Assembly (NCBI RefSeq): GCF_017377745.1
Contig: NZ_JAFVMG010000001.1
Coordinates: 434,001-498,000, forward strand
DNA: 64,000 bases
Source of the DNA: Acetobacter suratthaniensis
GTDB taxonomy: Bacteria; Pseudomonadota; Alphaproteobacteria; Acetobacterales; Acetobacteraceae
Direction: 5' to 3'
Shown: positions 2,448 through 41,761 of the stretch, piece by piece
Numbering within the stretch: position 1 is the stretch's first letter
Layout of the letters: every line of letters begins with the position of its first letter
Notes under the pieces: model-generated
What the model saw: the letters and a program-made list of their open reading frames with translations, nothing else
Database searches by the model: none
Told to the model about the DNA's origin: nothing
Program-made: the position numbers and the translations under genes

Positions 2448-3659
2448 TTGAAACACCTTCTGGACATGGTCTTACGACAGTTTGTTTCTTACGGCTGTCT
2501 GTCCGTTTACTGGTCAGATGGCGCCTTCAGCCAGTATCAGGGCAGCAGGGTAGGGCCGCAGGCGGCTCTCAGGCTCAAAGACGCACAGGCCGAGCGGGCA
2601 TTGCTGCTCAATCCGGGGCTGGGGGTGGGTGAAGCCTATATGGAAGGCAACCTGCAACCGGTAGACTGCACGCTTTACGACCTGCTCGAACTGCTCATGC
2701 TCAATGCGATGGAGCCTGCGGGCCATGTAAGCGAGCGTCTGGCCTCTGCTCTGCGTTATGTCCGGCGAGGCTGGACACAGTTCAACCCGGCGGCACGGGC
2801 GCAGCGGAATGTCGCGCATCATTATGATCTGGGCAACAGCCTCTACCAGTTGTTTCTGGATAAGGACTGGCAGTATTCCTGCGCATATTTCCGCTATGGC
2901 ACCGAAACGCTGGATGAAGCGCAGGAGGCCAAAAAACAGCATATAGCCGCCAAGCTTTTGCTCGACAGGCCGGGGCTGGAGGTGCTGGACATAGGGTGCG
3001 GGTGGGGTGGTATGGCCCTGACCCTTGCGCGTGATTATGGGGCTGTGGTGACGGGTATTACCCTCTCGCAGGAGCAGCTTGCTTTTGCGCGTGAACGGGC
3101 CCGGCAGGAAGGGCTCGAGCGGCGTGTGCGGTTTGAGCTGCTTGATTACCGCCACCTCAGGCGGCAGTTTGACAGGATCGTATCTGTTGGCATGTTCGAG
3201 CATGTCGGGATTGGGCATTACAGCCAGTTTTTCGATGTGGTGAAAAACAGCCTGAAACCCGATGGTGTGGCGCTGGTACATTCCATCGGGCGGAATGACG
3301 GGCCGGGTACGACCAATCCGTGGATTAACAAATACATTTTCCCCGGAGGATATTCTCCCGCCCTGAGCGAAGTACTGCCCGCGATCGAGCAGGCAGGCTT
3401 ATGGGTAACGGATTGCGAAATCCTCCGGCTGCATTATGCCAAAACGCTTGCCTGCTGGCGTGAGCGCTTTGCCGCCCGCAGGCCCGAAGCCGTTGCATTG
3501 TATGATGAACGTTTTGCCCGGATGTTCGAATTCTATCTTACAGCATCGGAACTGGCGTTCCGTGTGCAGGGACATATGAACTTTCAGGTGCAGCTTTCCC
3601 CCTCGCTTGAGGCGGTGCCTTTGACGCGTGATTATATTGCGGAGGCGGAAAAGGGCTGA
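2448..3659 (+). CDS. cfa: Cyclopropane-fatty-acyl-phospholipid synthase family methyltransferase
   Basis: A 403-residue SAM-dependent enzyme that adds a methylene bridge to unsaturated acyl chains of membrane phospholipids, a common acid and ethanol tolerance trait. The SAM-binding motif VLDIGCGWGGMALTLA sits near the middle, preceded by NVAHHYDLGNSLYQLFLD and followed by GITLSQEQLAFARERA and FDRIVSVGMFEHVGIGHY, all standard for the family. I prefer a TTG start at 2448 (MKHLLDMVLRQF), 7 nt after GAGGA; an in-frame GTG at 2427 and an ATG at 2382 lack such a site and add a non-conserved leader. It stands alone, convergent with the envelope operon. Confidence 0.88.
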   Translation: MKHLLDMVLRQFVSYGCLSVYWSDGAFSQYQGSRVGPQAALRLKDAQAERALLLNPGLGVGEAYMEGNLQPVDCTLYDLLELLMLNAMEPAGHVSERLASALRYVRRGWTQFNPAARAQRNVAHHYDLGNSLYQLFLDKDWQYSCAYFRYGTETLDEAQEAKKQHIAAKLLLDRPGLEVLDIGCGWGGMALTLARDYGAVVTGITLSQEQLAFARERARQEGLERRVRFELLDYRHLRRQFDRIVSVGMFEHVGIGHYSQFFDVVKNSLKPDGVALVHSIGRNDGPGTTNPWINKYIFPGGYSPALSEVLPAIEQAGLWVTDCEILRLHYAKTLACWRERFAARRPEAVALYDERFARMFEFYLTASELAFRVQGHMNFQVQLSPSLEAVPLTRDYIAEAEKG

Positions 3660-35216: not shown

Positions 35217-37538
35217 TTAGCCCGCCTTGTTCAGACCTGCCAGCACATCCGCCGGGCGAATGGGCAGGTGGCGCAGGCGCACACCAACAGCATTGAAAAT
35301 TGCATTGCCAATGGCGGGGGCGATGGTGGTCACACCCGGTTCGCCCAGACCCATGGGCTTTTCCGTACTGGGCAGGAACTCAATGTCCATGTCCGGCACA
35401 TCGGCAATACGCAGCGGCGTGTAGGTATCAAGGTTACGGTCACGCACGTTGCCGTTCTCGATTTCCGTGCCTTCGAATAGCGCCATGCTCAGGCCCCACA
35501 GTGCTCCGCCTTCAGTCTGGGCGGTAGCGCCATCGGGGTCGATCACGGTGCCTGCGTCGAGCACCAGCCAGATTTTCTCGCAGGTGACAACGCCCGTTCT
35601 GCGGTCAACCCGCACGCGGGCGGCACCGGCAGTCCATGTTGGCATGCCGCGTTCCTGACCGAAGGTCGTGGCAATGCCAATCCCTGTATCGGCAGGCAGG
35701 TCGGTGCGGCCATAACCGCATTTTTCCGCCAGACGCTTGAGCACCGCGGCCTGACGGCTGGCGCCACCAACGGAATCCGGCGCGGAACCGGCATTGCGCC
35801 CCTTGCTGATCAGCAGGCTCAGGCGCAGGCTGACAGGGTCTTTGCCGATGTCATGGGCGACTTCGTCCAGAAAGCTTTCATGCGCCCAAGGCGTCCAGCC
35901 GGAACTGACCGAACGCAGCCAGCCGGGCCGGAACGTGGCATCGGCCAGATCGTTGTCGAGTGCGCGCACTCGCATCGGACCTACAGTGTACCAATGATCG
36001 GCCCCGGCAATGGCGAACTGGTCGTAAGGCTTGCCATCGGCCCCTTTTTCCATGAATGCCGCAGCCATGACACGGGTTGGCCAGCCAGCGGCGGCATGGT
36101 GCTGCCAGCCCTGAAACGCGCCGTCCTTTGTCATGGCAGCGCGTACGGTCTGGATGGAAGGCGAGCGGATTGAGTCGTACTGAACATCATCCGAACGGGT
36201 AAAGATCAGCTTGACCGGCTTGCCACCCAGCGCCTTGGAAATCAGGGCCGCAGGTACGGCGTAGTCACCATTCAGGCGTCGGCCGAACCCACCGCCCAGC
36301 ATGTAGCTGCGCATCACCACATCGGTTTCGGGCACGCCCAGCGCCTTGGCGATGACAGGCAGGAACAGGGACTGCCACTGGTTGCCGCAATGCACTTCCC
36401 ATTTGCCTTCATGCAGGCGGGCCAGCGCGTTCAGCGGCTCAAGCTGATAGTGCAGGACAGACGAGCAGGTATAGGTATGCTCCACAACCTTCTCGGCATG
36501 GGCAAAGGCTTCATCCACCCCGTCATCATTGAAGACGCAGGAACCGCCTTCCTTGTTGGCGATCTGGGCGCGGCCATGCTCGATAATGTCGTGTTCGCTT
36601 ACATGCGCCGTAGGCCCGGCTTCCCATGTGACCTTCAGCGCATCGGTCGCGCGGATGGCAGCCGGGTAGGACGAGGCCAGCACAGCCACCCAGCCGGGCA
36701 CCGTGCCGGAGGGATCTTCCAGCACGATATGGCGGATATAGCCCTTGACCTTTTTGGCTTCCGTTTCATCCACCGAGACAACCTTGGCCCCGTAGCGGGT
36801 AGGCGGCAGCTTGGGGCGGGCGTACACCATGCCTTCTAGCTTGGCGTCTATCCCGTAAACAGCCGTGCCATCGGTCTTTGCCGGAATATCGAGTGCGCGA
36901 ACCTGCTTGCCGATCAACCTGCGTTCGGAGGCGGGCTTGAGCGGCAGCTTGGCCATTTCTTCGGGCGTGAAGCTGCGGGTCGGGTGTGCGCGGCTGACGA
37001 TATCGCCATAAGCGATGGAGCGCTGGCCTGCGATGACATGACCATTACGGGCAACACAGGCCGCCGGGGCCACACCCAGCAGCTTGGCCCCTTCTGCCAC
37101 CATGACGGTGCGTGCGGCCGCTCCGGCCTGACGGAACTGATCCCACGTCATCCAGACCGACCACGACCCGCCGGTGACCATCAGGCCCCATTTTGGATCG
37201 GTATCGACATAGGTGATACGCACCTTGTCCCAGTCGGCTTCCATTTCATCAGCAATGATCCGGGCCAGAGCTGTGCCGATATGCTGGCCCATTTCCGCGC
37301 GGATGATGTTGATGTTCACCCAGCCATCAGGCGCGATGGAGCACCACAGCGTGGGCTCGAAGGCTCCGGCTTCAGGCAGATCCGCCGCCGCCTGCGGGAA
37401 AACGGGAGCCGCCTTGGCCGAGCGGGCGAAACCGAAGAGAAAGGCCGAGCCTGCGGCTGTCAGCAGAAAGCCGCGCCGGGTGGGGCCCAGCCCCGCCGAA
37501 CGATCCTGACGGGCTGCGATGCGTTCGAGCTTACCCAT
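35217..37538 (-). CDS. aldH: Membrane aldehyde dehydrogenase, molybdopterin large subunit
   Basis: The catalytic subunit of the periplasmic-facing aldehyde dehydrogenase that turns acetaldehyde to acetate and passes electrons to ubiquinone through its partners. The 773-residue protein has a twin-arginine signal (TRRGFLLTAAGSAFLFGFAR) and the isoquinoline/aldehyde oxidoreductase fold: MGQHIGTALARIIADEMEAD, GTAVYGIDAKLEGMVYARP, SYMLGGGFGRRLNGDYAVPA and GLGEPGVTTIAPAIGNA, whose Glu is the catalytic base. It resembles AldH of vinegar bacteria as remembered. ATG 37538 overlaps the small-subunit stop by 8 nt. Last gene of a three-gene operon. Confidence 0.9.
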   Translation of the reverse strand: MGKLERIAARQDRSAGLGPTRRGFLLTAAGSAFLFGFARSAKAAPVFPQAAADLPEAGAFEPTLWCSIAPDGWVNINIIRAEMGQHIGTALARIIADEMEADWDKVRITYVDTDPKWGLMVTGGSWSVWMTWDQFRQAGAAARTVMVAEGAKLLGVAPAACVARNGHVIAGQRSIAYGDIVSRAHPTRSFTPEEMAKLPLKPASERRLIGKQVRALDIPAKTDGTAVYGIDAKLEGMVYARPKLPPTRYGAKVVSVDETEAKKVKGYIRHIVLEDPSGTVPGWVAVLASSYPAAIRATDALKVTWEAGPTAHVSEHDIIEHGRAQIANKEGGSCVFNDDGVDEAFAHAEKVVEHTYTCSSVLHYQLEPLNALARLHEGKWEVHCGNQWQSLFLPVIAKALGVPETDVVMRSYMLGGGFGRRLNGDYAVPAALISKALGGKPVKLIFTRSDDVQYDSIRSPSIQTVRAAMTKDGAFQGWQHHAAAGWPTRVMAAAFMEKGADGKPYDQFAIAGADHWYTVGPMRVRALDNDLADATFRPGWLRSVSSGWTPWAHESFLDEVAHDIGKDPVSLRLSLLISKGRNAGSAPDSVGGASRQAAVLKRLAEKCGYGRTDLPADTGIGIATTFGQERGMPTWTAGAARVRVDRRTGVVTCEKIWLVLDAGTVIDPDGATAQTEGGALWGLSMALFEGTEIENGNVRDRNLDTYTPLRIADVPDMDIEFLPSTEKPMGLGEPGVTTIAPAIGNAIFNAVGVRLRHLPIRPADVLAGLNKAG

Positions 37539-38019
37539 GGGAAGTCTCCTTGCCGGATGTCTGGGCACGAAGGGCCGCCGCAGCCTTTTTGATGGCCTTG
37601 CGGATTCGCACATAGGTCATGCACCGGCACAGGCTGCCGCCCATGACGCCGTCGATTTCTTCGTCCGTCGGGTCCGGGTAGTCCTTGAGCAGGCTGACGG
37701 CCTGCATGATCTGGCCGGACTGGCAGTATCCGCATTGCGGAACCTGAATGTCCTTCCATGCTTCCTGCACGGGGTGCTGGCCCTGTGGGTCCAGCCCCTC
37801 GATGGTGGTGATGTCCGCCCCCTCGATGGAACTCATGGGGGTAATGCACGAGCGGGTAGCCCGCCCGCCCACCAGCACGGTGCATGCACCGCACTGGCCA
37901 ACGCCACAGCCGAATTTTGTGCCGGTCAGATCCAGATCGTCACGCAGGGCCCACAGCAGGGGGGTATCTTCCGGCACATCGATGCTGACATCACGGCCGT
38001 TGAGTTTAAACGTTATCAT
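37531..38019 (-). CDS. aldF: Aldehyde dehydrogenase, [2Fe-2S] small subunit
   Basis: A 162-residue electron-transfer subunit with two [2Fe-2S] clusters. The plant-type ferredoxin cluster ligands lie in FGCGVGQCGACTVLVGGRAT (plus a later Cys in SCI), and the second, xanthine-oxidase-type cluster in CGYCQSGQIM and GGSLCRCMTYVRIRKAI. It links the molybdenum centre in AldH to the cytochrome. It lies 21 bp after the cytochrome gene and overlaps aldH. The symbol follows the aldFGH naming in vinegar bacteria, from memory. Confidence 0.92.
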   Translation of the reverse strand: MITFKLNGRDVSIDVPEDTPLLWALRDDLDLTGTKFGCGVGQCGACTVLVGGRATRSCITPMSSIEGADITTIEGLDPQGQHPVQEAWKDIQVPQCGYCQSGQIMQAVSLLKDYPDPTDEEIDGVMGGSLCRCMTYVRIRKAIKKAAAALRAQTSGKETSHG

Positions 38020-38040: not shown

Positions 38041-39387
38041 TTAGTGAGATGAATTGACAGGAACGGACTGCACCGTGCTGCGTACCGCGGCGGCCTTTTT
38101 CTCAAGGTCGGTCCATGGTGGCAGGGTCGTGCGCGTGCGGCGCAGATAGGCGGCGATCCGTGCCATGTCCGCATCGGACAGGGCGTTGTAGAAACTGGGC
38201 ATGGCAACGCCGGACTGCCCTTCTTCCGCGCTCAGGCCGTGTAGCATGACCTGGAAGAGGTTGGTCGGCTCATCCAGCCACAGGGCGTTGTTCAGCGCCA
38301 GTTCGGGGCGACCGAGTACGGGGGCCGGGGCTGCATTGTAATGGCAGGCCGCACATGCGCCCTGATACAGCTTGGCATCCGGGTCGGGGTTAGGCCCGAT
38401 CAGACCTGCACGGGACTGCTCCATGGCGAGAGCCAGTGCTGCAGGGTCGTGCTTGGAGCGTTCGGCTGCGTGGTCAATATCGGCATAATAATGCGCGATT
38501 GCCCGCACGTCTTCTTCCGGTACGGTGGACAGGAAGCGGTGCGGCACGGGCGACATCGGGCCGCCAGCCGGGCCATGCAGCGGTGCCACCCCAAAACGCA
38601 GGTACTGGAAGAGTTCTTCTTCCGTCCATGTGGTGGGGGTGGGGTTGTGCTCGTTCAGTGGCGGGGCAATCCAGTTGTCCACCACGGCGCCATCGTACTG
38701 AGCGCTTTTCTTTTCGGCACCCATGAAGTTGCGCGGCGTATGGCACGCACCGCAATGCGCGTTGCCTTCTGCCAGATAGGCGCCACGGTTCCACAGCGCA
38801 TCATGGCTGGGGTCGGGCTTGTACTCGCCGGGGCTGAAGAACATCAGCTTCCACCCTGCCTGCATGATGCGCAGGCTGAGCGGGAAGGGGAGTTCATTCG
38901 GCCGGGGTTCCAGATGCACGGCGGGGCGTGTCATCAGGAAGGCGTACAGGTCGGACAGGTCCTGATCGGTCATTTTGGTGAAATGATCGTACGGGAACGC
39001 CGGGATCAGGTGTTCACCCTCCCGCGAGACGCCCAGACGCATGGCGCGTTTGAAGGCGGCTTCTGACCATGAGCCGATACCGGTTGCGACATCAGGCGTG
39101 ATGTTTGAGGAATGAATGGCCCCGAAAGGCGTTTCCATCCGGTAATCGCCCGCGAGTTCAGGCCCGGGTGTGCCATCGGTGCGGGTATGGCATTCGGCGC
39201 AATAGCCTTCAGCCGCGACAATCCGCCCGCGTTCGATCTGTTCAGGCGTGAATGTACCGGCTGCCGGCGGTGCGACAGACGGCAGCGCCGGATACCAAGT
39301 GTAATAAAGAAAACCGAGCCCGGCTACAGTACCGACTGCAGCAGCTCCTGCGAGAAAACGTTTGATCACTCCAACCCCCACTCCCAT
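38041..39387 (-). CDS. aldG: Aldehyde dehydrogenase, tri-heme cytochrome c subunit
   Basis: A 448-residue membrane-anchored cytochrome c with three CXXCH sites: CAECH (residues 63-67), CGACH (about 210) and CAACH (about 340). An N-terminal helix (FLAGAAAVGTVAGLGFLYYT) serves as uncleaved anchor or signal. This is the layout of the cytochrome subunits of acetic-acid-bacterial alcohol and aldehyde dehydrogenases, which hand electrons to ubiquinone. It is the first gene of the operon; an FNR-type palindrome lies about 75 bp upstream of ATG 39387. Confidence 0.9.
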   Translation of the reverse strand: MGVGVGVIKRFLAGAAAVGTVAGLGFLYYTWYPALPSVAPPAAGTFTPEQIERGRIVAAEGYCAECHTRTDGTPGPELAGDYRMETPFGAIHSSNITPDVATGIGSWSEAAFKRAMRLGVSREGEHLIPAFPYDHFTKMTDQDLSDLYAFLMTRPAVHLEPRPNELPFPLSLRIMQAGWKLMFFSPGEYKPDPSHDALWNRGAYLAEGNAHCGACHTPRNFMGAEKKSAQYDGAVVDNWIAPPLNEHNPTPTTWTEEELFQYLRFGVAPLHGPAGGPMSPVPHRFLSTVPEEDVRAIAHYYADIDHAAERSKHDPAALALAMEQSRAGLIGPNPDPDAKLYQGACAACHYNAAPAPVLGRPELALNNALWLDEPTNLFQVMLHGLSAEEGQSGVAMPSFYNALSDADMARIAAYLRRTRTTLPPWTDLEKKAAAVRSTVQSVPVNSSH

Positions 39388-39461
39388 GCCGGATACCCTT
39401 GCTTACGAAAGACCAGTGGGGCGCTTTCGTCGCGGCTTACGCATCTGAGGCTGATATTGTT

Positions 39462-39475
39462 TTGACTTGGATCAA
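39462..39475. promoter_or_regulatory. FNR/FixK/Crp-type binding palindrome upstream of aldG
   Basis: TTGACTTGGATCAA fits TTGA(T/C)-N4-(A/G)TCAA, the FNR/Anr/FixK consensus, with one asymmetric base. It is centred about 81 bp upstream of the aldG start codon, which is compatible with activation from about -40 if the leader is short. Inference from motif only. Confidence 0.6.
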
Positions 39476-39478
39476 GTC

Positions 39479-39523
39479 TTATCCGCCTTTTGGGTATCAA
39501 TACAATGTATGGATGGCGGATAA
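39479..39523. repeat. 9-bp inverted repeat upstream of the FNR-type box
   Basis: TTATCCGCC (39479-39487) and GGCGGATAA (39515-39523) are perfect complements 27 bp apart, just outside the FNR-type box. The spacing suits a looped operator or a second regulator site rather than a terminator. Confidence 0.5.
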
Positions 39524-39896
39524 AGACGCGCAAAAGTGAATAAGATTTATTTGTGTGGGGGCTTATGTCGTATGACTTTATTAGAGTAAGACACGTAAAT
39601 GCGCCTGTCTATATTTGACCGTATATAGATAAATGCCTGCCGGGTCTGTCTGGTTACATGCCCGTGCCACACAGCCTGTGGCCATTTTGCGCCGGATCGG
39701 CACAGAACCTGCATGCGGGTTGCATAATATGCAGCGCACCGCAGGGCAGGGCTTGCATGGCGCGAAGCTTTCTTTTAAGGGAGCGCATTCATGCACGCGT
39801 CCGGGCCTGTGGGGCATGCCTGGCCGTGCAAGGCTGAACGTTGCGTTCTTGTGGCGCTGTTCGGTCTGATCCTTTGTGTTTAGCAGGAGTAGTCAA

Positions 39897-40100
39897 ATGC
39901 CCAAGATGAAGACCAAGTCATCGGTCAAAAAGCGGTTCAAGATCACCGCGACCGGTAAGGTGCTCTCGGGCCCCGCTGGCAAGCGCCACGGCCTGATCAA
40001 GCGCACGCAGAAAATGAAGCGCACTGCACGTGGTACGCAGGTTCTGGCTCACCAGGACGGCCGTACAGTGAAGCAGTGGGCCCCCTACGGGCTGGCGTAA
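39897..40100 (+). CDS. rpmI: 50S ribosomal protein L35
   Basis: A 67-residue basic protein beginning [20 protein letters not shown], the L35 signature, and ending [21 protein letters not shown] lies 7 nt before the ATG. Followed by rplT after 14 bp, as in nearly all bacteria. infC is not immediately upstream. Confidence 0.97.
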
Positions 40101-40114
40101 GGAGCATCTGAGAA

Positions 40115-40474
40115 ATGGCACGTGTAAAACGCGGTGTAACCACCCACGCCCGTCATAAAAAAGTTCTGGATCTGGCCAAAGGCTATCGCGGCCGGTCATC
40201 CACCAACTACCGTATTGCGCTTGAGCGCGTTGAAAAGGCGCTGCGTTACGCATATCGCGATCGCCGCAACAAGAAGCGCGAATTCCGCGCTCTGTGGATT
40301 CAGCGTATCAACGCTGCCGTGCGTGAGCATGGCCTGACCTACAGCCGTTTCATCAACGGTCTGGACAAGGCTGGCATCGAAATCGACCGTAAGGTTCTGG
40401 CCGCCATCGCTTTTGATGACGCAGCAACCTTCGCCGAAATCGTAAAGAAGGCGCAGGCCGCTCTGGCCGCCTGA
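40115..40474 (+). CDS. rplT: 50S ribosomal protein L20
   Basis: L20 binds 23S rRNA and is needed for early 50S assembly; in many bacteria it also represses its own operon. The 119-residue protein starts [20 protein letters not shown] and has [40 protein letters not shown] and [21 protein letters not shown] strong terminator follows, separating it from pheS. Confidence 0.97.
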
Positions 40475-40512
40475 TTATCAGGCGCCTGACAGGCTTTTAC
40501 GGCTTTACAAGA

Positions 40513-40544
40513 AGGGCCGCCCGGTTTTCCGGGCGGCCTTTTTT
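40513..40544 (+). terminator. Rho-independent terminator after rplT
   Basis: GGCCGCCCGG (40515-40524), TTTT loop, CCGGGCGGCC (40529-40538) and TTTTTT. Perfect 10-bp stem; pheS is therefore likely to have its own promoter or to depend on read-through. Confidence 0.92.
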
Positions 40545-40690
40545 GCGTTGTGGGCTGTAAATCGGCCTATTATGGGCGGTCAGGGGCGAGCTTAATCGAC
40601 GCAAATGGAGGGTTTTTAGGGATCGGGGCTTTCCTCGGCGGGCAGGAAATTGTATCCGCCGGGTAGCGTTTTCTCCTCGTGTGGGGTTCC

Positions 40691-41761
40691 ATGAGCGACG
40701 ATCTTGATACTCTTCGGCACGAAGTCCTGTCTGAACTGACAGCCGTGACAGACCTGAAAGCCTGGGATGCCGTGCGTGTAGCCACGCTCGGCAAGTCCGG
40801 CCGCCTGACCGGGCTGCTGAAGGCTTTGGGCAAAATGGCACCGGAGGAACGCAAGCAGCGCGGCGTTGCCCTCAACCGCCTACGTGATGAACTGACACAG
40901 GCGGTTGAAGAACGGGGCCGCGCCCTTGAAGCCGCCGCCCTTGAGGCGCGGCTTGTGGCTGAGCGGGTTGATGTCAGTTTGCCGCCAGCGCCTGTCCAGC
41001 AGGGCTATATCCACCCGATCAGCCGCGCGATCGAGGAAATGACCGCCATTTTTGGCGCCATGGACTTTCAGGTGGCGGAAGGGCCGGATATCGAAACCGA
41101 CTGGCACAATTTTTCCGCACTCAATACGCCTGCCCATCATCCCGCCCGTACGGATCACGACACGTTTTACCTGCCGCCCGTGCCGGGGCTGGATGTGGCG
41201 CGCGTTCTGCGTACCCAGACATCGGGCGTGCAGATCCGCACCATGCTGGCGCAGAAACCGCCGATCCGTATCATTGCCCCCGGTCGCACCTATCGTGCCG
41301 ATCATGACGCGACGCACTCGCCCATGTTCCACCAGTGCGAAGGGCTTGTGGTCGGGCAGGATATTACGCTGGGCCACCTCAAGGGCTGCCTGATCGACTT
41401 CCTGCGCGCCTTTTTTGGCAAGCCGGATATGCCGGTTCGTTTCCGTTCTTCTTACTTTCCTTTTACCGAACCTTCTTTGGAAGTGGATATCGGCTGGTCG
41501 CGTAAGACAGGCGAAATCGGCGCGGGTGAAGACTGGCTGGAGGTGCTGGGAGCAGGCATGGTGCATGCGCGCGTTCTGGCTAATTGCGGGCTGGACCCAT
41601 GCACGTGGCAGGGGTTTGCCTTCGGTATGGGGGTGGAGCGCCTGACCATGCTCAAGAACGGCATTCCCGATCTGCGGTCGTTCTATGAAAGTGATATCCG
41701 CTGGCTGCGGCATTACGGCTCTGATCCGCTCGCGCCCGCCATGCTGCACGAAGGGGTGTAG
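40691..41761 (+). CDS. pheS: Phenylalanine--tRNA ligase alpha subunit
   Basis: The catalytic subunit of the alpha2beta2 enzyme that charges tRNA-Phe. The 356-residue protein has the N-terminal coiled-coil (ATLGKSGRLTGLLKALGKM), then class II motifs: HPISRAIEEMTAIFGAMDF, FHQCEGLVVGQDITLGHLKG, RSSYFPFTEPSLEVDI and motif 3 GFAFGMGVERLTMLKNGIPD. ATG 40691 starts the conserved region; the opening at 40679 adds only four residues. It precedes pheT by 3 bp. Confidence 0.97.
   Translation: MSDDLDTLRHEVLSELTAVTDLKAWDAVRVATLGKSGRLTGLLKALGKMAPEERKQRGVALNRLRDELTQAVEERGRALEAAALEARLVAERVDVSLPPAPVQQGYIHPISRAIEEMTAIFGAMDFQVAEGPDIETDWHNFSALNTPAHHPARTDHDTFYLPPVPGLDVARVLRTQTSGVQIRTMLAQKPPIRIIAPGRTYRADHDATHSPMFHQCEGLVVGQDITLGHLKGCLIDFLRAFFGKPDMPVRFRSSYFPFTEPSLEVDIGWSRKTGEIGAGEDWLEVLGAGMVHARVLANCGLDPCTWQGFAFGMGVERLTMLKNGIPDLRSFYESDIRWLRHYGSDPLAPAMLHEGV

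Follow-up and report, generated by a model that had tools for sequence, protein, structure and literature searches.

A proposed Mo-box and a clade-restricted FNR-type box ahead of a predicted molybdenum aldehyde dehydrogenase operon in Acetobacter

The ald operon and related regulatory systems

Vinegar fermentation ends with the oxidation of acetaldehyde to acetate. In Escherichia coli, molybdoenzyme operons such as dmsABC and moaABCDE are under the control of both FNR and ModE. The E. coli ModE consensus is given as ATCGNTATATA-N6-TATATANCGAT, and single-domain forms of ModE are known (PMC545781); ModE is also described as repressing Mo-free nitrogenases while molybdenum is present (PMC7294313). 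For acetic acid bacteria, the membrane-bound aldehyde dehydrogenase bears the name AldFGH (PMC8102297), and GoxR, an FNR-type protein that regulates respiratory and redox genes, is described as the only Crp/FNR-family protein of Gluconobacter oxydans (PMC9429829, PMC7567684).

The window (by which we mean the whole 64-kb stretch of DNA analysed here) derives from an Acetobacter closely related to A. peroxydans, with 96% identity in the first operon protein, and holds an operon in which cytochrome c, 2Fe-2S and molybdopterin subunits occur together (Table 1). This is the make-up of the AldFGH type; we take the three subunits to be AldFGH, and the predicted operon product is a membrane-bound molybdenum aldehyde dehydrogenase that would oxidize acetaldehyde. 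The listed start of the large-subunit frame overlaps the 2Fe-2S gene, and its true start may lie further in. The first gene has two start candidates, ATG 39387 and GTG 39369, the latter being the likelier because in most of the aligned relatives an indel falls between these codons. The intergenic region upstream of the operon is 509 bp long; within it, directly upstream of rpmI-rplT, an infC-like frame is absent. Rfam families matched nothing in 38900-41000 above their gathering scores, and their weak matches fell mostly at 40406-40570, at or after the end of rplT.

Table 1. Coordinates of the operon, its neighbours and the sequence elements between them (window positions)
Feature	Position	Strand	Basis or remark
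Molybdopterin-binding large subunit (ORF as listed)	35217..37613	-	MoCoBD_1, MoCoBD_2
2Fe-2S subunit	37531..38019	-	Fer2, Fer2_2
Triheme cytochrome c subunit, first operon gene	38041..39369	-	3x CxxCH; Cytochrom_C (scanned from 39366)
FNR/FixK-type palindrome TTGACTTGGATCAA	39462..39475	.	motif match; aligned perfect copies in relatives
GATAAG, -10-like, candidate only	39478..39483	-	conserved; read by eye
Reported 9-bp dyad, arms 39479-39487 and 39515-39523	39479..39523	.	judged chance
Element A, AATAAATCTTATTC, near-palindrome	39538..39551	-	conserved
Element B, TCTATAT-N8-ATATAGA, proposed ModE-type Mo-box	39608..39629	.	conservation; consensus PMC545781
rpmI-rplT (ribosomal L35, L20), divergent from ald, other boundary of the region	39897..40474	+	

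The FNR-type box and the adjacent dyad

The first-pass annotation had read TTGACTTGGATCAA as a match to the FNR/Anr/FixK consensus, and this stands: all 10 positions of TTGAY-N4-RTCAA are matched, the copy is the sole one in the window, where 0.14 would be expected, and 12 of 100 shuffles contained at least one. The genome-wide motif search that it had called for gave 15 sites in 3.09 Mb against 2 for the reversed control pattern; some of the 15 lie within reading frames or at their ends. The predicted FNR site ahead of the operon is more than chance. Its reported distance of 75 bp to aldG applies, at 74 bp, to the ATG, and becomes 92 bp when counted from the likelier GTG.

One clear protein of the Crp/FNR type is encoded in the same genome. 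It joins a cNMP-type sensor domain to a Crp-type HTH, over the Pfam cut-offs, and scores 53.5 bits for Crp and 64.4 for HTH_Crp_2; two further genes barely reach the HTH_Crp_2 cut-off. The protein has FNR-like N-terminal cysteines (CLLCDRSRGGLC and one more cysteine) and an ETVSR recognition helix (E..SR), and among solved structures it matches FixK2 and an FNR best. It stays below the NCBIfam cut-offs of FnrL (148.4/300 bits), FixK (126.5/300) and Fnr (82.6/228), and we therefore assign it to none of these subfamilies. Further boxes of the genome precede an OmpW-like gene, a pntAA-like gene and formate dehydrogenase, and one stands where the fnr-type gene starts (the names OmpW-like and pntAA-like were given by eye). 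Those at L104:1869-1882, in the gap between the OmpW-like and fnr-type genes, and at 2100-2113, at the start of the latter, hint at possible self-control; that at L106:1667-1680 lies 144 bp before the pntAA-like (transhydrogenase) gene. A 426-aa gene and the one that follows it are surrounded by three copies of TTGACATCTGTCAA / TTGACAGATGTCAA (L112:1685-1730 and 3046-3059), which may form a plasmid partition operator and not be FNR sites.

The comparison with relatives, also proposed in the first-pass annotation, gave a divided picture: a perfect box is present at ald in 6 of the 24 core Acetobacter loci and has decayed in the remaining 18, and it occurs in none of the 28 loci of three other groups (0/8 other Acetobacter and Ameyamaea, 0/13 Komagataeibacter and Novacetimonas, 0/7 Gluconacetobacter). 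Perfect aligned copies besides that of the window are found at L005, L007, L015, L016 and L043, so that the box is held in position in six genomes of two Acetobacter clades (peroxydans and fabarum). On a tree without A. papayae the presence of the box amounts to two changes, both within a single 11-row clade (the tree omits L007 and L070, whose open frames break off early when read from the match start). By eye, five of the six other rows of this clade retain the ATCAA half in place and one has ATCAG. All 19 Gluconobacter ald loci carry a related TTGA...CAA element, which in 7 of them is TTGA-N6-TCAA, and a -10-like stretch can be made out by eye 24-26 bp past it. On this distribution, FNR control of ald is plausible, though confined to some lineages.

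No class II -10 hexamer was seen by eye ca. 22 bp after the box in the window or in L016, and a sigma-70 scan of 39300-40000 returned zero minus-strand sites and one plus-strand candidate (0.6 expected), which ends inside element B. Just upstream of the box, a -10-like hexamer has GATA in 24/24 core Acetobacter loci and GATAAG in 18 (by eye). If this is a -10, the box would sit on the start point, which comes close to the case that the first-pass annotation itself had set against its reading, namely a transcription start that leaves the site in the leader.

The perfect 9-bp inverted repeat reported beside the box exists as a sequence: TTATCCGCC (39479-39487) and GGCGGATAA (39515-39523) are separated by a gap of 27. 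It does not hold up as a functional site. Inverted repeats of 9 bp with gaps of 3-30 number 42 in the window, and at least one appears in 24 of 500 shuffles of the intergenic region. In the two closest relatives one arm is changed and the other intact (A. peroxydans TTATCTGCC, A. papayae TTATCCGTC), and across the rest of the aligned Acetobacter the drifting arm is unrecognisable. The arm adjoining the box includes the conserved GATAAG; it is the other arm that drifts. Such repeats being common and the arm unconserved, we rule the dyad out as the site of a second regulator and regard it as chance.

A conserved upstream element and a ModE-type protein

In the alignment of the upstream regions, elements A and B are both better conserved than the FNR box. 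Element B, which is located ca. 150 bp further upstream than the box, was counted at ald when found with at most one mismatch within 500 bp. It precedes ald at 42 of the 45 loci of Acetobacter, Ameyamaea, Komagataeibacter and Novacetimonas: 22/24 in core Acetobacter, 7/8 in other Acetobacter and Ameyamaea, and 13/13 in Komagataeibacter and Novacetimonas, with 0.05, 0.05 and 0.00 expected from shuffles, respectively. At the 26 loci of Gluconacetobacter (0/7) and Gluconobacter (0/19) it is absent. CTATAT-N7..11-ATATAG has a single occurrence in the genome of the window. As a bare palindrome the element is not rare, a 7-bp repeat with the same gap turning up in 71 of 2000 shuffles of the region; it stands out by its conservation, not as a palindrome. 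Its core and spacing, TATAT-N8-ATATA, are shared with the E. coli ModE consensus, and its outer bases (TC...GA versus ATCG...CGAT of the E. coli site) are mismatched.

These counts bear directly on the proposal that the operon is chiefly controlled by FNR, either by itself or jointly with a second regulator at the dyad. A perfect box that chance rarely supplies, one clear FNR-type protein in the genome and conservation of the box in two clades all speak for such a role; the dyad, unconserved and of a common kind, speaks against it, and so does the presence of the perfect box at 6/24 core Acetobacter loci versus 22/24 for element B. We consider it decidedly unlikely. Control by oxygen or redox status, as first suggested, thereby persists in reduced form: an FNR-type protein and a box in 6 genomes are there, but the box is not general and element B had been missed. 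More likely, ald is governed mainly by a molybdenum regulator of the ModE type, to which FNR adds a second input in some lineages.

Another reading assigns the elements to the promoter of the divergent rpmI-rplT, since in the window they are located between ald and rpmI. Elsewhere A and B keep company with ald even though other genes stand upstream (by eye, mannitol-dehydrogenase-like, PQQ-dehydrogenase-like, ssb and glycosyltransferase-like); as both elements follow ald, rpmI-rplT is ruled out as their owner, and what probability this reading keeps is minimal. Element A is positioned between the Mo-box and the promoter, and was found at 18/24 loci of core Acetobacter, 1/8 of other Acetobacter and Ameyamaea, 13/13 of Komagataeibacter and Novacetimonas, 0/7 of Gluconacetobacter and 0/19 of Gluconobacter. 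Its sole other exact copy in the genome, at C5:59432, lies 33 bp before a gene of unknown function. A wider regulon for element A was rejected (43 matches with at most 2 mismatches versus 92 for the reversed control), and none of 81 loci with other Mo-box sites has a copy of it within 350 bp of the first site.

The counterpart that we propose for element B is a 115-aa HTH protein encoded in the same genome. It scores 80.4 bits against TIGR00637 (E 7.8e-23), under the curated cut-off of 98.5, and we therefore term it ModE-type; its best solved match is 2ijl (E 7.5e-26). The protein consists of the HTH only, a molybdate-binding (TOBE/Mop) domain being absent from its 115 residues, and a separate 69-aa Mop protein, over its own cut-off, is encoded as well. 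Our searches for ModE and for the motif took in 50 of the 70 Acetobacteraceae loci. In these 50 genomes, ModE-type proteins were found in 38 of 39 outside Gluconobacter (15/15 core Acetobacter, 7/8 other Acetobacter and Ameyamaea, 9/9 Komagataeibacter and Novacetimonas, 7/7 Gluconacetobacter), with matches of 71-83 bits, none of which attains the cut-off. The 11 Gluconobacter genomes gave LysR-like matches of less than 25 bits and no ModE-type gene. Two cases depart from the joint occurrence of gene and site: Acetobacter sp. DsW_063 has element B, and a strong ModE-type match is missing from its draft; Gluconacetobacter has the ModE-type gene, and element B is missing at its ald. At the Gluconobacter potus locus L033:1-729, a gene that is MolA-like by eye stands upstream of, and divergent from, ald; a ModE-type gene was not found in that genome.

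Mo-box-like sites elsewhere and comparison with known systems

With at most one mismatch, the Mo-box motif occurs 110 times in the 38 genomes that have a ModE-type gene, versus 18 for the reversed control, and 36 of the 38 have at least one site; the figures are 5 versus 3 in the 11 Gluconobacter genomes and 3 versus 0 in DsW_063. Family assignment covered 85 of the 86 sites outside ald in the 39 non-Gluconobacter genomes (one site in G037 was left out, and the five Gluconobacter sites were kept outside the assignment). Within 700 bp upstream of recurrent families lie 62 of the 85, a count in which sites of related genomes are not independent. The largest share (32/85) precedes NAD(P)-superfamily aldehyde dehydrogenases of four subfamilies; those tested are nearest in NCBIfam to succinate-semialdehyde dehydrogenase and the acetaldehyde dehydrogenase ExaC, below the cut-offs. 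Molybdenum enzymes together account for 11/85, namely formate dehydrogenase type (7/85, one at only 25% identity) and large subunits of the xanthine-oxidase family (4/85). TonB receptors (12/85) and MolA-like binding proteins (4/85) make up 16/85, their role in molybdenum uptake being putative; the binding protein matches HI_1472 (E 8.6e-12), which we take to be the molybdate protein MolA, and its best match is 4ovk. Smaller counts are nuoA (2/85) and a PQQ dehydrogenase (1/85, itself the reference), and 23/85 sites have no assigned family, 2 of these lying inside nadC-like genes. Most reference families were chosen after the first 40 loci; of the later 44 sites 27 were assigned, 9 of them via references of the second batch. 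The nuoA (complex I) sites, L212:2490 and L222:2526, lie ca. 230 bp before the gene in A. sicerae and a related MAG.

In the genome of the window, sites with at most one mismatch are that at ald and one inside a nadC-like gene, and those with 2 mismatches belong to a TonB receptor, to formate dehydrogenase and to contig C5. Just before the TonB-dependent receptor, L122:3452-3495 holds two head-to-tail Mo-box-like sites (2 and 3 mismatches), where relatives have single, better ones. No site with up to 2 mismatches precedes an NAD(P)-type aldehyde dehydrogenase in this genome, and any switch between the two kinds of aldehyde dehydrogenase therefore rests on relatives. Distances from Mo-box to gene start are 37-324 bp for aldehyde dehydrogenases (one 681), 129-200 for the formate dehydrogenase type, 18-137 for TonB receptors and -5 to 60 for binding proteins; telling activation from repression by this distance fails, as the ranges overlap, and the sign of the Mo-box effect therefore stays one that we infer.

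The many aldehyde dehydrogenases among the targets raise the alternative that element B binds a regulator responsive to aldehyde or ethanol and not a ModE-type protein, which would explain the 32 sites before four NAD(P)-type subfamilies. It leaves without explanation the sites before formate dehydrogenase, TonB receptors and MolA-like genes, the match to the ModE consensus and the co-occurrence with the ModE-type gene, and we think it unlikely.

The joint arrangement of Mo-box and FNR box recurs at a second molybdenum enzyme. In six relatives the formate dehydrogenase has an FNR box of 9/10 positions, its distance from the start of the Mo-box being 137-140 bp in five of them and 79 bp in the sixth, and in the genome of the window a 2-mismatch Mo-box and a perfect FNR box are 68 bp apart there. 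The corresponding offset at ald amounts to 140 bp in L015, L016 and L043, whereas L007, L005 and the window have 152-154 bp. An FNR box of at least 9/10 lies within 350 bp of the Mo-box at 6/7 sites of the formate dehydrogenase type, 1/31 of aldehyde dehydrogenases, 0/4 of the xanthine-oxidase type, 0/16 of TonB receptors and binding proteins, and 4/23 unassigned loci. These counts limit the pairing to ald and formate dehydrogenase, and do not extend it to all molybdenum enzymes.

Our preferred reading, to which we give a probability of roughly 0.6, is a composite switch: ModE-type control through element B, joined in the peroxydans and fabarum clades by an FNR input. The single-domain ModE-type regulator would bind element B and most likely raise ald expression when molybdenum is available, because the enzyme needs a molybdenum cofactor; in the two clades the FNR-type protein would also bind its box and add oxygen or redox control. 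Should GATAAG be the -10, the FNR box would cover the start point and FNR would act as a repressor at low oxygen; alternatively it may activate from about -42, as suggested by the arrangement seen at formate dehydrogenase in some relatives, and in Gluconobacter. The sites and how well they are conserved, the occurrence of both regulator types and the layout shared with formate dehydrogenase were computed directly, and from them we infer the binding of both proteins at ald and the sign of each effect.

A wider model, which we offer tentatively, is a molybdenum switch for aldehyde oxidation. With molybdenum present, the ModE-type protein would turn on the molybdenum-dependent ald and formate dehydrogenase; with molybdenum scarce, it would release TonB/MolA-type uptake and the NAD(P)-type aldehyde dehydrogenases, which are Mo-free, and in some species FNR would act as an oxygen gate on the molybdenum-enzyme operons. 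The separate Mop protein, or some other partner, would have to sense the molybdenum. None of the literature titles listed concerns ModE of acetic acid bacteria; as the word 'mode' is so frequent, this weakly supports its absence from print. If the switch is real, traces of molybdate or tungstate in the medium would decide which aldehyde dehydrogenase works, and the system would be a clear case of a sensor-less ModE-type protein controlling a regulon, in which the way such proteins sense molybdenum becomes testable.

The closest known system is the ModE regulon (E. coli ModE; MopA/MopB of Rhodobacter capsulatus), whose Mo-box shares its core and spacing with element B (PMC545781). As in that regulon, sites stand before molybdenum enzymes and probable molybdenum uptake genes, and a ModE-type HTH protein is present; in contrast, the protein here has one HTH domain and lacks the molybdate-binding domain, the site departs from the known one in its outer bases, and Mo-free aldehyde dehydrogenases are numerous among the targets in relatives. 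The E. coli operons under FNR and ModE likewise combine both site types in one molybdenum-enzyme promoter region, whereas the host here is an aerobe, the enzyme is a periplasmic aldehyde dehydrogenase of oxidative fermentation, and the FNR site is found in some species only. With GoxR the present regulator has in common that it is FNR-type and the single clear Crp/FNR-family protein of its genome; the ald of the GoxR host genus, Gluconobacter, differs in carrying TTGAG-type and not TTGAT-type half sites. Finally, the predicted logic is that of the Mo-free nitrogenases, a Mo-free isoenzyme being held down by a ModE-type regulator while molybdenum is present; for aldehyde dehydrogenases this is no more than a prediction.
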